A stretch of DNA of 64,000 nt from Bryocella elongata. GTDB taxonomy: Bacteria; Acidobacteriota; Terriglobia; Terriglobales; Acidobacteriaceae. A program made the position numbers and the translations under genes. The stretch lies in NCBI RefSeq assembly GCF_900108185.1, contig NZ_FNVA01000008.1, positions 62,001-126,000 of the forward strand, given 5' to 3'. This document shows, in pieces, positions 29,702-33,798 of the stretch (position 1 is its first letter; each line of letters begins with the position of its first letter). The notes beneath the pieces were generated by a model that was given only the letters and a program-made list of their open reading frames with translations, was not told the origin of the DNA and did no database searches.

Positions 29702-30895
29702 TTATGGACGGACGACAACCGGCTGGATCGGAAATCGCCGTTTCAGTCGAAGCAAGGGAGCCTGCATGAGCTCAAACAATAGCAGCGCAGCGGCAAAACT
29801 GAGTACGACGAGCAGGACGAAGCGTGCGGCGAGGAAGGGTGCACTCCCACTGGGAGCGATGTAACCGGCGATCTTGTTCGTCGAATGCTGGAGGAGTGGT
29901 GAAAGGACAAAGATGCCGTAGCTGAATCTTCCGATGTAGTTCAACGGAGGCCGTCCGAGGGCGCGGCGAAGAGGGCCATCCTCGAGCGCGAGTCCGAGGA
30001 GAGCGGCGGCTGCGATTCCGGCGGAAGGAATTCCGAACAGGAACATGGGCCGGGAGTTTCGCGCAAAGTGCCCGCCGAGGACTCCTGCCAGGTAGAAGCC
30101 CGCCAGGCCGGTGATGAGCAGGATCGGCAGACGGGATACGAGTCGTCGATGCCAGGAAAAGCCCGGAGCGAGGTACACCATGCCACCGAGACCAAAGACA
30201 GAAGCGTAGGTGAGTGGGAACTGGTCGAAGACGTGATTGCGGACCATCGGCCCGAGAAAGGGCAGTCCCCAGACGGCCCAGCAGAAGGCGACGGAGACGA
30301 GGGTGAGTCCTGCGGCGAGCTTCATGGCGCTGCGCCGGGCATTGACGGTGAGCATGAGCAGCGGCCACGCGCAGGCGAGCTGGAAGAGGATTGCGACCAT
30401 CCAGAGGTGGCCGATCGGCAGAGGCGATGGCTGCTGGCTGGCGGGCTCGGTGAGGAAGGGGAGATTCTGCAGAAACCAGGCGTAGAGCTTGAGCGGGCCT
30501 ACGTCGGCGAGCCGGGTGCCGCGGGCGACGGCAAGCGCGGTCGCGACGAGCAGCACGAGGTAGTAGAGCGGGAAGAGGCGGATCGCCCGGCGGGCGTAGA
30601 AGTTCCGGAGCCAGTGCGCAGGGTGCAGGCCGTCGGGCTGGTGCAGCGTCTCCCAGAGACCGCCGGTGAGCAGATAGCCGGAGAGCGTGAGGAAGACAAG
30701 GCCCGCAGCCCAGAAGGGGCTGGCGACGGTCTGAAGGAGCGGGTGTCCGGAGGTTCCGTCGGCGAGCGGTCCGCAGGTCCCAATGAAGAGCAGGCCCAGT
30801 ACCGCGAGGCCGCGCATGCCGTCGAGCGCGGGATCACGGTTCACACTTCGGGGGTTGGCTGCGGTCCGCTGCGGGGCCCAGTCAAGAGTCGCCAT
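29702..30895 (-). CDS. Acyltransferase family 3 membrane protein
   Basis: A 397-residue integral membrane O-acyltransferase (OafA/AT3 family) that transfers acyl groups, often acetyl, to surface glycans. Features are the start PALDGMRGLAVLGLLFIGTC, an early basic segment YARRAIRLFPLYYLVLL containing the family R-x-x-R, and WMVAILFQLACAWPLL. About ten hydrophobic helices follow. No SGNH domain is attached. It lies on the same strand as the deacetylase/ATP-grasp pair upstream, suggesting a group for modifying surface polysaccharides or small glycoconjugates. The acceptor is unknown. Confidence 0.85.
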   Translation of the reverse strand: MATLDWAPQRTAANPRSVNRDPALDGMRGLAVLGLLFIGTCGPLADGTSGHPLLQTVASPFWAAGLVFLTLSGYLLTGGLWETLHQPDGLHPAHWLRNFYARRAIRLFPLYYLVLLVATALAVARGTRLADVGPLKLYAWFLQNLPFLTEPASQQPSPLPIGHLWMVAILFQLACAWPLLMLTVNARRSAMKLAAGLTLVSVAFCWAVWGLPFLGPMVRNHVFDQFPLTYASVFGLGGMVYLAPGFSWHRRLVSRLPILLITGLAGFYLAGVLGGHFARNSRPMFLFGIPSAGIAAAALLGLALEDGPLRRALGRPPLNYIGRFSYGIFVLSPLLQHSTNKIAGYIAPSGSAPFLAARFVLLVVLSFAAALLLFELMQAPLLRLKRRFPIQPVVVRP

Positions 30896-31084: not shown

Positions 31085-32785
31085 TTAGCTCTGAAGCTGC
31101 TGCGCAGCGTCGCGGATGCGCTGATAGCAGAGCTGAAACTCGGACAGGTCGCCGCCGTAGGGGTCGGAGATCTCGAGCGGCCCGGAGGGGTCGGCAGCTC
31201 CCAGAAAGGCAGCCCGTGCGAGAAGGCTGGGATCGAGAGCGCGGAGTGAGAGCCAGTTCTGGCGGTCGAAGAGGAGGATCATGTCCACGGAACGGGCTTC
31301 GTCCAGCGTCAGGACGGCGGAGCGGTGGGGCTCGAGGTCGACCCCGAACGCGGCAGCCGCGGTGACGGCGTTCCGTGGCGAGCGTCGACCGGGCAAGGGG
31401 AGGAAGCCCCGGCTGAGGATCGTCCGGCCGGAGGACTCCAGCAGCTGCGCCGCGAAGGGGCTGCGGCAGATGTTGCCGTGGCAGCAGACGGCGATGGTCT
31501 TCGAGGTTGCGAAGAGCAGGCGCAGGCGTCGCTGGCGTTGCTGCCGGTAGGGGCTGAGCATCTTGAGGACGCGAAAGAGCTTTTCTTCGAGATACTGCCC
31601 GAGGTCCTGCCATGCCGGCCGCGGGTCGCGGAGCTGGAAGGTGTCGCTGCGCTCGCGGAGGGTGACGATGTTCCAGAGCTCGGACGCGATGGCGGCGAAG
31701 GTACGGGTCTGGAGCTCGGGGTTGCGTTTGTCGGCGCGAAGATTGGCGAGGAACCACTGGATATCGGTCGACCAGTGGCGACAGTAGATGTTGTTGCGAT
31801 AGGTCTGCGGCGCGGGCCGCACGCCCTCCAGGAGCAGACGCACGAGGTGCAGTGGGAAGTCGACGCCGGCGGCGACGCTGAGCGCCAACGAGCCCCAGAA
31901 GCGGGCGTTGATCTCGACCAGAATCCAGCGGCCGTCGGAGGTGTTGCGCTTGAACTCCACCATGGCGACGCCGGTGTAGTCCATCGAGCGCATCATCTTC
32001 CGGGTCGCTTCGAGCATGGCGGGTTCGAGGGGAACGCAGCGGCGGTAGGAGCTTCCGCCGCCCTGAATCGGCTCGTGGACGCGCTCGTGCTGGAAGGCCA
32101 GCAGGATTTCTCCGTGATCGCAGAGGACCTCGACGCCGACGCCAACGCCGATGAAGTTCTCCTGTGCAAGCACGGGGCCCGAACGCAACATCTCGAGAGC
32201 GACTTCGCGGGTCTCGGGCTCGCTGCGAACCTTGTGGACGCGGCGGCGGTGGAAGGGATCCTGCTCGGTGGCCGAGGTGGTGGGCTTGAGGACGAGCGGG
32301 TAACCGAAGCCAGCGGCGGCCTGCAAGGCCTGGTCGACGGTGTCAACGTGTTGCTGCCGGGGAACCGGAACTCCATGCGACGCGCCGAGCTCCCAGGTGA
32401 GGTTCTTGTCCGCGCAGAGGCGGTAGGTCTCGTCGGGAAGAAGGTAGACGCGGGTCAACGGCTCGAAGCGGTTGCGCTTCAGCTGCAGCGGGAGCGCGCT
32501 CTGGTCGTTGGTGGGGAGGACGAGGTCGATGCGGAAGTCGCGGATGAGGGCTTCGAGGGCAGTAATCCACGGAGCCTCGTCGCCGCGCTCGAACGCCGGG
32601 AGACGGTGAACGCGGTGCAGATACAGGGAGGATAGGGTGGGGAGATCGTAGGCACACCACGCCGCATGGACCTCGTAACCTGCTGCTCCCAGGGAGCGGA
32701 CCACCGAAAGAAAGGACTTGGTGTCATCTCCCAGGACGAGAATGCGGCGCGGCTGCGTGCGCATGTTCAGTGCCGGAGTGCTCAA
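31085..32785 (-). CDS. ATP-grasp ligase fused to a low-molecular-weight protein-tyrosine phosphatase
   Basis: A 566-residue two-domain protein. Residues 12-410 form an ATP-grasp enzyme (PLVLKPTTSATE, GVEVLCDHGEILLAF, RWILVEINARFWGSLAL), which would ligate a carboxylate to an amine, thiol or similar. Residues 428-566 form an LMW-PTP: CX5R loop CHGNICR (C435 to R441) followed by SP, and general acid D541 in ISDPYGG. Both active sites look intact. The start TTG at 32785 overlaps the deacetylase stop (TTGA) with GGAAGG upstream; an ATG at 32764 is possible. The fusion suggests the ligation product or a tyrosine-phosphorylated glycan-export factor is dephosphorylated in the same pathway; this is inference. 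Confidence 0.85.
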   Translation of the reverse strand: MSTPALNMRTQPRRILVLGDDTKSFLSVVRSLGAAGYEVHAAWCAYDLPTLSSLYLHRVHRLPAFERGDEAPWITALEALIRDFRIDLVLPTNDQSALPLQLKRNRFEPLTRVYLLPDETYRLCADKNLTWELGASHGVPVPRQQHVDTVDQALQAAAGFGYPLVLKPTTSATEQDPFHRRRVHKVRSEPETREVALEMLRSGPVLAQENFIGVGVGVEVLCDHGEILLAFQHERVHEPIQGGGSSYRRCVPLEPAMLEATRKMMRSMDYTGVAMVEFKRNTSDGRWILVEINARFWGSLALSVAAGVDFPLHLVRLLLEGVRPAPQTYRNNIYCRHWSTDIQWFLANLRADKRNPELQTRTFAAIASELWNIVTLRERSDTFQLRDPRPAWQDLGQYLEEKLFRVLKMLSPYRQQRQRRLRLLFATSKTIAVCCHGNICRSPFAAQLLESSGRTILSRGFLPLPGRRSPRNAVTAAAAFGVDLEPHRSAVLTLDEARSVDMILLFDRQNWLSLRALDPSLLARAAFLGAADPSGPLEISDPYGGDLSEFQLCYQRIRDAAQQLQS

Positions 32786-33798
32786 AGCCGGGACCTTCCG
32801 GTGGACGCCAGCGATGCCAGTCGGAAGCGGAACAGGGGACCTAGCGATCTGTCGATCGCCTCGCGGCGAACGTCCATGGGATTGGCCGACGGCAGAGAGT
32901 TGGTTCCTCCATAGAAGGAAAAGGCGATCTCAAAGCCGGCGTTGCGGGCGGCCTTCTGCGTTTCGCCGTTGAAGGCGGTCGTGCTTCCGACCGGATAGGC
33001 GATCGACCGGGTGGGACGGCCCAGCTCGTGGTCGAGGATGGCGCGGGAGGTGGCGCACTCTTCCGACTGCCCGGCCGGGGACAGCTTGGTCAGGATGGGG
33101 TGGGTGTGGGTGTGGGCGCCAAAGTTCATGCCGGCCTGTTGCATGATGCGCGCTTCGTCCCACGTGAGGAAGGCGCGCTCGGAGCTGGTCGAGGGGCGGG
33201 ACGAGCCGCAGGCGCGCTCCAGTTCCTCGAGAAAGCGCGACGGGGTGTCCATCGCGGGACTCTTGAAGAGGTTGAGGATCTCCCGGATGGCGACCTCGCG
33301 CTGGGAACCCGCAAGGTCGAACTCTCGGGGTTCCGGGTACGTGAGTGTGATGCGGGGGCGGGTCGAGGACTTGACGAGGTAGGCGATCGAGTCCCACCAA
33401 GGGACGTTCCCGGTGCCGACGAAGGCCGTAGGCAGGAAGAACGTAGCCGGGACCTGGTGGCGGGTGAGAACGGGGAAGGCCTCGTCGAAGTTATCGCGAT
33501 AGCCGTCGTCGAAGGTGAGGAGGATCGAGGTTTCGTTGGCCGTCGTCGCGCCGAGGAGGAGCTCCAGCGCCGCATCGAGGGAGACGATGGGGAAGCGCTG
33601 CTTGAGGAAGGCGACGTGCTCGTCAAACTCCGCGGTGCTGCAGGAGAAGAGCCCGGAGTCGTATGGGGTGGCCGCCGCGTCGCCCACGCGATGCAGATTC
33701 AGGACGAGCAGTGCGGGCAGGGTATGGCGGGATTCGAGGAGCCGCGTTACTCCGGCTGATGCAGCCAGCCGGGCCACAAGCTCTTTCTTTCCAGCCAT
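32782..33798 (-). CDS. Polysaccharide deacetylase (NodB-domain)
   Basis: A 338-residue metal-dependent deacetylase of carbohydrate esterase family 4 type. The NodB core is visible: catalytic and metal Asp in LLTFDDGYRDN, the two metal histidines in FGAHTHTHPIL, and IAYPVGSTTAFN. There is an extra N-terminal helix segment (KKELVARLAASAGVTRLLES) of the sort found in O-antigen or capsule-associated members, and no clear signal peptide. It overlaps the downstream ATP-grasp/phosphatase gene by 4 bases, so the two are translated together. A likely role is removal of N- or O-acetyl groups from a glycan or lipid-linked sugar. Confidence 0.88.
   Translation of the reverse strand: MAGKKELVARLAASAGVTRLLESRHTLPALLVLNLHRVGDAAATPYDSGLFSCSTAEFDEHVAFLKQRFPIVSLDAALELLLGATTANETSILLTFDDGYRDNFDEAFPVLTRHQVPATFFLPTAFVGTGNVPWWDSIAYLVKSSTRPRITLTYPEPREFDLAGSQREVAIREILNLFKSPAMDTPSRFLEELERACGSSRPSTSSERAFLTWDEARIMQQAGMNFGAHTHTHPILTKLSPAGQSEECATSRAILDHELGRPTRSIAYPVGSTTAFNGETQKAARNAGFEIAFSFYGGTNSLPSANPMDVRREAIDRSLGPLFRFRLASLASTGRSRL

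Follow-up and report, generated by a model that had tools for sequence, protein, structure and literature searches.

LMW-PTPs (PF01451) of the Wzb, AmsI and VpsU type are small, single-domain phosphatases that are as a rule encoded together with their kinase. In Vibrio cholerae, VpsU is reported to dephosphorylate the BY-kinase VpsO and to promote polysaccharide production (PMC7485978). The protein analysed here shares with this group the C-X5-R-S and D-P-Y motifs, an exopolysaccharide context in its relatives and the presence of BY-kinases in its genome; unlike them, its phosphatase domain sits C-terminally in an ATP-grasp protein, on a contig without a kinase match. The N-terminal domain is best matched by the profiles of PRK12767-like ligases ('carbamoyl phosphate synthase-like') and ATPgrasp_Ter, with 2pn1 as a solved relative and a fold near PylC among others, but the PRK12767-like score of 63.6 bits is far below the NCBIfam equivalog cut-off of 390. 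Many relatives lie among genes of the exosortase A (XrtA/PEP-CTERM) exopolysaccharide kind, from clusters with representatives that match TIGR03108, TIGR03097, TIGR03100, TIGR03101 and TIGR03099, whereas the protein itself matches no exosortase-system family (among 25 of its 27 NCBIfam matches) and the exosortases of its own genome are on other contigs. None of its Pfam matches listed or of the same 25 NCBIfam matches covers both domains. The adjacent deacetylase shares the Polysacc_deac_1 domain and the metal site with CE4 enzymes of the PgaB/NodB kind, but falls far short of the equivalog cut-offs for PgaB and NodB. No description of an ATP-grasp/LMW-PTP fusion was found in the literature searched (open-licence PubMed Central) or in the available parts of PMC7314104 and PMC11631085. 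As detailed below, the fusion protein is one of a widespread family, and its gene often has that of a sugar deacetylase as a neighbour.

A NodB gene followed by an ATP-grasp/LMW-PTP fusion

The window is the whole stretch of 64,000 nucleotides from Bryocella elongata that was analysed (contig NZ_FNVA01000008.1, positions 62,001 to 126,000), and the features concerned, in window positions, are as follows.

32782 to 33798, minus strand: NodB/CE4-type polysaccharide deacetylase (P0002), 338 residues, Pfam PF01522 match
32782 to 32785, minus strand: TTGA overlap of the NodB stop and the fusion start, applying only with the TTG start
31085 to 32785, minus strand: ATP-grasp/LMW-PTP fusion (P0001), 566 residues from TTG or 559 from the ATG at 32764
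31589 to 32749, minus strand: ATP-grasp ligase domain, residues ~13-399 (profile, alignment, fold match)
31505 to 31624, minus strand: helical linker joining the two domains, residues ~388-427 (secondary structure of the model)
31094 to 31495, minus strand: LMW-PTP domain, residues 431-564 (Pfam LMWPc, PF01451)
31460 to 31483, minus strand: phosphatase loop C435-HGNIC-R441-S442, C-X5-R-S (sequence and alignment)
31151 to 31165, minus strand: general-acid loop D541-P-Y-G-G (sequence and alignment)
29702 to 30895, minus strand: AT3 acyltransferase (P0003), 397 residues, Acyl_transf_3 match

The coordinates and strand in the preliminary description proved correct on rechecking, as did its reading of a single open reading frame joining an ATP-grasp ligase to a phosphatase with complete CX5R and DPYGG sites, which Pfam matches and a residue check support. 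The NodB gene immediately precedes the fusion on the same strand. The four-base overlap described earlier depends on the start codon: it applies if the TTG, closely preceded by GGAAGG, is used, but with the ATG chosen by the gene caller, 21 bases further into the gene, a gap of 17 bases results. A fusion start codon overlapping the NodB stop is present in 9 of the 15 related loci with an upstream NodB gene.

P0001 exceeds the Pfam cut-offs of ATPgrasp_Ter (E 3.5e-11) and CPSase_L_D2 (E 3.6e-7). An AlphaFold2 model of the fusion is confident over both domains (mean pLDDT 93.7, pTM 0.88). A fold search retrieved 2pn1 (Z 27.6, rmsd 3.1, 297 residues aligned) and PylC 4ffr (Z 27.0); its rows span residues 9-403, so that it is barely informative on the phosphatase part. 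E277, E291, N293 and R295 are kept in all 60 fused relatives, and K167 and K127 in 59/59 and 58/58 once gaps are set aside; we take K127, K167, E277, E291 and N293 to be the ATP-/Mg-binding positions of the superfamily. The predicted fold and this Lys, Glu and Asn set thus point to a genuine ATP-grasp domain. Since ATP-grasp folds serve many reactions, the fold does not by itself imply that an amide is made.

The LMWPc match (E 1.3e-17) reaches 64.8 bits against a cut-off of 23.2. C435, G437, N438, R441 and S442 of the phosphatase loop are each kept in 60/60 relatives, as are D541 and P542, and Tyr or Phe follows the D-P pair in 57/60. The profile, the C-X5-R-S loop and the general-acid Asp are all present, consistent with an LMW-PTP. 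By sequence, the best solved matches of the domain are AmsI (4d74) and Wzb (2fek), a likeness that makes a BY-kinase seem a likelier target than a sugar or lipid phosphate. An arginine phosphatase of the YwlE type was set aside: the fusion loop has Ile at a position where YwlE presumably has Thr.

P0002 matches Polysacc_deac_1 (E 4.3e-25) and has the catalytic Asp and the Asp-His-His metal site (D97, D98, H229, H233). These residues recur in the NodB proteins adjoining ATP-grasp relatives (D97 and D98 in 21/22, H229 in 22/22, H233 in 21/22). Inspection by eye revealed no obvious signal peptide in P0002, and it is therefore probably cytoplasmic.

The gene order was compared with that of related loci, in which genes were called with our own simple caller. 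The immediate upstream co-directional gene encodes a NodB in 15 of 58 fusion loci (shuffle mean 2.4; none of 2000 shuffles as high), two of the 60 (L136 and L147) being left out since the caller did not place their fusion in the main cluster. Downstream NodB genes are not above chance (3 observed, shuffle mean 2.5), and 18/60 loci have a NodB immediately adjacent to the fusion. Because 4 of the 20 unfused loci likewise have NodB as their immediate upstream gene, the linkage is to this kind of ATP-grasp rather than to the fusion per se. A 328-residue gene adjoining the L115 fusion, in a cluster that also includes L112, L114 and L138, looks NodB-like by eye; it was excluded from the NodB counts because it has no Pfam match up to E 1.

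The AT3 gene (Acyl_transf_3, E 9.7e-20) is indeed the next on the strand, starting 189 bases downstream of the fusion. No promoter- or terminator-like site was found in this gap, so co-transcription may be possible. Of the three genes proposed to occur together, NodB and the fusion are linked as above; P0003 has no phmmer match in the best 80 related loci (E 1e-4), which rules out AT3 as a conserved member of the unit. Three of these 80 loci have another AT3-looking protein, judged by eye.

Distribution and ancestry of the fusion family

In a many-species scan, 60 of the best 80 loci, under eleven phylum labels, encode both domains in a single open reading frame; the 80 are the best matches to the full-length query, and 60/80 is not a prevalence. 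One locus with the domains in different frames (L168) was scored as unfused; another with its ATP-grasp region in two frames (L120) was scored as fused, since a single frame takes in the phosphatase together with some of the ATP-grasp. Some phylum labels may reflect mis-binned MAGs, as L117 and L133 are near-identical yet differ in phylum label and L165, labelled Bacteroidota, falls among Pseudomonadales rows in the tree. The fusion thus recurs in many species with both active sites kept, and neither of the outcomes that the preliminary description had named as fatal, a fusion found only here or a domain lacking activity in all relatives, holds. No other protein with both domains was found among 60 other sampled relatives or in a phylum sample of 396 genomes including the organism's own, where up to three candidates per genome were scored from matches to E 1e-8.

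Within the family, the window's fusion groups with that of Singulisphaera (L120) with a support of 89 in a quick tree in which L120 fills 45% of columns. Starred groupings of 12 and 14 rows enclose the two, and the acidobacterial fusions L127, L130, L169 and L171 fall outside. (Alignment A2 leaves out seven of the 60 fused relatives: L120, L126, L145, L149, L154, L165 and L173.) DnaK, searched in 50 of the 60 fusion loci (a different 50 from those of the exosortase and kinase searches below), ranks the acidobacterial genomes nearest (L130 82%, L127 81%, L169 80%, and L171 87% over a 245-residue fragment). This disagreement between the fusion tree and DnaK disfavours vertical descent from an acidobacterial fusion. 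Among the retrieved loci and 61 genomes in which P0002 relatives were compared, the NodB closest to P0002 is, in the retrieved loci, the one beside the closest fusion, that of Singulisphaera. The NodB-fusion pair in the window was therefore likely acquired by transfer, judging from sequence relationships, its closest pair being that of Singulisphaera and not an acidobacterial one. A scan of viral contigs with P0001, sensitive to close relatives only, gave no match.

Kinases, phosphatases and exosortases in the fusion genomes

The preliminary description had noted the lack of a kinase, which is true locally but not of the genome. No match to the BY-kinase family TIGR01007 or to Wza (Poly_export, PF02563) is found on the window's contig (C16); the genome has 10 TIGR01007 matches, four over the cut-off, and seven PF02563 matches, all over the cut-off, and every one is on another contig. 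The four BY-kinases carry 5-8 Tyr within their last 60 residues. A BY-kinase with a tyrosine-rich tail, as expected for a Wzb-type phosphatase, is hence present in the genome and absent from the locus. The fusion is the only PF01451 match in the B. elongata genome; two CpsB-type (PHP-type) matches, 5-6 kb from two of the four BY-kinases and not near the remaining two, rule out that LMW-PTP is the sole type of tyrosine phosphatase present. The exosortase-linked BY-kinase, on contig C7, has neither an LMWPc nor a CpsB-type match beside it. In a genome-wide search, exosortase matches were at C7:45951 and C15:194320, and none lies beside the fusion. The locus therefore stands alone, with the kinase, Wza and exosortase matches all on other contigs, which counts against the reading that we favour below.

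Many relatives have an exopolysaccharide or exosortase setting. A gene from a cluster with a representative matching an XrtA-system NCBIfam family is present at 36/60 fusion loci, including 26 of 30 in a large, mainly proteobacterial clade; XrtA-named families also occur at 7/20 unfused loci, and at 4/10 loci in the window's own tree neighbourhood. Of the 60 fusion loci, the first 50 supplied the genomes for the exosortase, LMWPc and kinase searches. Exosortase TIGR02602 is present in 37/50 (a raw rate, from fusion genomes only), and 17/50 have an exosortase no more than 50 kb away from the fusion. A TIGR03018 kinase match shares the fusion's contig at a distance of at most 50 kb in 21/50, 14 of them over the cut-off; this raw rate counts matches with E under 1e-25, including those below the TIGR03018 cut-off. 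Both 50-kb counts score G455, in which the fusion's place was unassigned, as without a neighbour. The second gene downstream of the fusion is kinase-like, under the cut-off, in L127 and L130, two MAGs of Acidobacteriaceae. More than one LMWPc match was found in 46/50 fusion genomes, which as a rule therefore offer other candidate phosphatases besides the fusion; the notion that it is always the sole LMW-PTP fails, with a single LMWPc match in only 4/50.

Possible roles of the fused phosphatase

We favour, tentatively and at a little under even chances, a reading in which the NodB-fusion pair works in the cytoplasm as a module that decorates an exported polysaccharide, and the attached phosphatase has a BY-kinase as its target. 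NodB would deacetylate an N-acetylated sugar in a precursor carried on a nucleotide or a lipid and so free an amine; the ATP-grasp domain would activate a carboxylate by way of an acyl phosphate and join it to this amine; and the LMW-PTP domain would dephosphorylate the tyrosine-rich tail of the BY-kinase governing polymer length and export. The ligase probably adds groups to a sugar polymer of the cell surface. With the LMW-PTP fused to the ligase, decoration and export control would reside on one protein. The likeliest target in the organism's own genome would be the exosortase-linked BY-kinase on contig C7, acted on in trans. Four points of this proposal are conjectural: that an amide is formed, which substrate is used, that a kinase is the target, and that decoration is coupled to export.

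A less probable alternative is that two independent activities were joined for co-expression only, the ligase decorating the polymer and the phosphatase serving general tyrosine dephosphorylation with no mechanical coupling. ATP-grasp and LMW-PTP are also encoded by adjacent separate genes in several clusters (solo LMW-PTP genes lie directly beside ATP-grasp genes in L083, L089 and L090), and the fused label changes nine times on the ATP-grasp tree, at least five of them forced by starred branches; joined and separate forms thus both work. That the fusion is the sole LMW-PTP match of its genome also suits a general role. Against this, the fusion persists although the sequences have diverged widely, the two domain hits lying 23-65 residues apart in 57/60 relatives, and the model is confident across both domains.

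We consider it quite unlikely that the phosphatase domain acts on the ligase's small molecule, a sugar- or lipid-phosphate intermediate, so that the three activities form one linear pathway. Two domains in one chain with NodB linked would allow a natural hand-on of the intermediate, and of the compact pathway proposed earlier, deacetylation followed by ligation on a glycan does fit the gene pair. The dephosphorylation step fares less well: the best sequence matches are protein tyrosine phosphatases, and an aromatic residue nearly always follows D-P. An LMW-PTP domain joined to a GT4 glycosyltransferase (L076) and the solo genes beside ATP-grasps also better fit a portable regulator. A non-enzymatic ATP-grasp sensor, switching the phosphatase on or off upon binding ATP and precursor, would agree with the confident domain arrangement and with the regulatory nature of related LMW-PTPs but is very improbable, since its Lys, Glu and Asn residues are kept in 58-60 of 60 (gaps aside) as expected of catalysis, and several of the 20 unfused loci have no phosphatase hit at all.

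Our preferred reading of a decoration module with a kinase-directed phosphatase admits a stricter form, which we regard as rather unlikely: a single-protein checkpoint in which the phosphatase is gated directly by whether the amino-sugar ligase is occupied or turning over, so that the BY-kinase would be reset only after proper decoration of the repeat unit. We know of no described counterpart to quality control that ties export to glycan modification in this way. If it were true, the checkpoint would be spread over many phyla, partly via exchange of the NodB-fusion cassette. How decoration is matched to export is poorly understood in bacteria, and the fusion makes such a link directly testable. 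In B. elongata it is a candidate phosphatase for the exosortase-linked BY-kinase, and under the model, proteins that at present carry only the annotation 'ATP-grasp domain-containing' would receive a name that reflects their function.

Gene layout and predicted structure of the fusion

The window, from a genome of 5.67 Mb, carries the fusion gene on its minus strand; the gene next after AT3, also on that strand, encodes an MFS transporter. Genes called with a simple caller of our own were as follows:

33798-32782, minus strand: NodB-type polysaccharide deacetylase (NodB), 338 aa
32785-31085, minus strand: ATP-grasp/LMW-PTP fusion, 566 aa; in order, ATP-grasp ligase (about residues 13-399), helical linker, LMW-PTP (residues 431-564)
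30895-29702, minus strand: acyltransferase 3 (AT3), 189 bases after the fusion gene

The stop codon of NodB overlaps the TTG start of the fusion, with four bases in common; an alternative ATG start, seven codons further in, leaves a 17-base gap. No promoter- or terminator-like sites were found between the three genes. The AlphaFold2 model of the fusion, built on a 54-sequence alignment, had a mean pLDDT of 93.7 and a pTM of 0.88. The closest fold to the ATP-grasp part is 2pn1 (Z 27.6, rmsd 3.1, 297 aligned), with which PylC (Z 27.0) and PurK-like enzymes tie, and Foldseek hits include L-amino acid ligases; the reaction is not given by the fold alone. AmsI and Wzb are the best sequence matches of the phosphatase part.

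Distribution and history of the fusion

A collection of 84,980 species, with one genome per species, was scanned with an alignment of ATP-grasp relatives. Both domains occurred in one ORF in 60 of the best 80 loci, so the architecture is more than a chance occurrence. The 60 loci are labelled Pseudomonadota, Acidobacteriota, Planctomycetota, Nitrospirota, Myxococcota, Gemmatimonadota, Poribacteria, Krumholzibacteriota, Calditrichota, Rokuibacteriota, and Bacteroidota, among which a few labels may be wrong, many of the genomes being MAGs. Neither 60 other sampled relatives nor a 396-genome sample from the phylum showed a further fusion. The catalytic residues of both domains are retained in the relatives (58-60 of 60, all ungapped rows): phosphatase Cys435, Gly437, Asn438, Arg441, Ser442, and Asp541 and ATP-grasp Glu277, Glu291, Asn293, and Arg295 were each found in 60/60, and ATP-grasp Lys167 and Lys127 in 59/59 and 58/58 with gapped rows set aside. 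Three Vibrio alfacsensis plasmids (NZ_CP140104.1 68054-69748, and two more) carry a relative with 32% identity over 97% of the fusion, annotated only as ATP-grasp domain-containing protein. Searches of the open-licence literature yielded no description of such a fusion.

Separate genes for the parts are present in relatives of the phylum, ordered ATP-grasp then LMW-PTP (L083), the reverse (L090), or LMW-PTP, ATP-grasp, NodB (L089). A further arrangement consists of NodB, an unfused ATP-grasp gene, and a GT4 glycosyltransferase with a C-terminal LMW-PTP (L076, and by similarity L078 and L075). The GT4 fusion lies at L076 10570-12471 (Pfam) and L078 8630-10540 (by similarity); more than one glycan enzyme seems to have been joined to LMW-PTPs.

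A quick tree built from 100 ATP-grasp rows pairs the window protein with that of Singulisphaera L120 (support 89) inside a starred 12-row set from several phyla and places the acidobacterial fusions L127, L130, L169, and L171 elsewhere. On this tree the fused label has to change nine times, and starred branches force at least five of these changes. The phosphatase tree is poorly resolved, yet gives the same nearest row. The best relative of the window NodB among the fetched loci (40% identical) adjoins the L120 fusion; together with the tree placement, this indicates that the NodB-fusion pair probably moved together between phyla. Among 50 named genomes compared, the DnaK nearest to that of the window genome came from acidobacterial MAGs (80-82%, plus 87% over a fragment), which makes the source probably an acidobacterium close to Acidobacteriaceae. 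L120 9995-11148 has two frames within the ATP-grasp part, reflecting a sequencing error or a decayed gene.

NodB linkage and exopolysaccharide surroundings

In 15/58 fusion loci the gene directly upstream, and in the same direction, is NodB (mean 2.4, maximum 8 in 2000 shuffles), and in 9 of the 15 a start codon that overlaps its stop is available; downstream NodB, in 3 loci, is at chance level by shuffling. NodB also stands immediately upstream in 4/20 unfused loci; the link is therefore to this type of ATP-grasp enzyme, with or without the phosphatase. A 328-aa protein adjoining one fusion (L115 9031-10017, of a cluster with members in L112, L114, and L138) matched nothing in Pfam up to E 1, though its start looks deacetylase-like by eye.

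Genes of clusters whose representative matches an XrtA-named NCBIfam family (amidotransferase, O-ligase-like, hydrolases 1 and 2, PLP decarboxylase, FemAB) were present in 36/60 fusion loci versus 7/20 unfused loci, with 26/30 in a large, mainly proteobacterial clade and 4/10 among the tree neighbours of the window protein. Of the fusion loci, 51/60 carry a cluster of the glycosyltransferase, flippase, amidotransferase, or O-ligase-like kind; each cluster name is the match of one representative, and some glycosyltransferase names come from weaker matches or reading. One protein family encoded close to the fusion (L123 2990-3613; about 250 aa), found in 9 fusion loci and often before exosortase-A hydrolases, had no Pfam or NCBIfam match for its representative.

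Among 50 of the fusion genomes, counted without matched control genomes, 37 contain a TIGR02602 exosortase (36 over cut-off). On the fusion's contig and within 50 kb, an exosortase lies in at least 17/50 and a TIGR03018 kinase match in at least 21/50 (14 over cut-off), lower bounds since many contigs are short. More than one LMWPc match was found in 46/50.

Kinases of the window's genome and proposed function

The setting had been described as kinase-free, which stands locally, on the fusion's contig, but not for the genome: four BY-kinases exceed the TIGR01007 cut-off, every one with a tyrosine-rich tail. The fusion is the genome's only LMWPc match. Two CpsB-type phosphatase matches (contigs C9:88244 and C4:380588) each lie 5-6 kb from a BY-kinase; the own-genome search placed neither an LMWPc nor a CpsB match close to the other two kinases, one of which belongs to the following compact locus:

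L192 9241-19176 (contig C7): exosortase/exopolysaccharide locus with exosortase, export protein, GNVR protein, ATPase, and BY-kinase; by reading, also sugar transferases

None of the genome's LMWPc, CpsB, or close window-NodB matches falls in this locus, and the fusion and the exosortases are on different contigs.

Known ATP-grasp ligases couple a carboxylate to an amine or another nucleophile. With a deacetylase and such a ligase paired, NodB would expose an amine, at which the ligase would form an amide. An LMW-PTP of Vibrio cholerae is known to dephosphorylate a BY-kinase and to promote polysaccharide output (PMC7485978). Given this precedent, the BY-kinase/exosortase context, and the NodB link, our best reading, at somewhat below even chances, is that the fusion may join a decorating enzyme to an export-control phosphatase.
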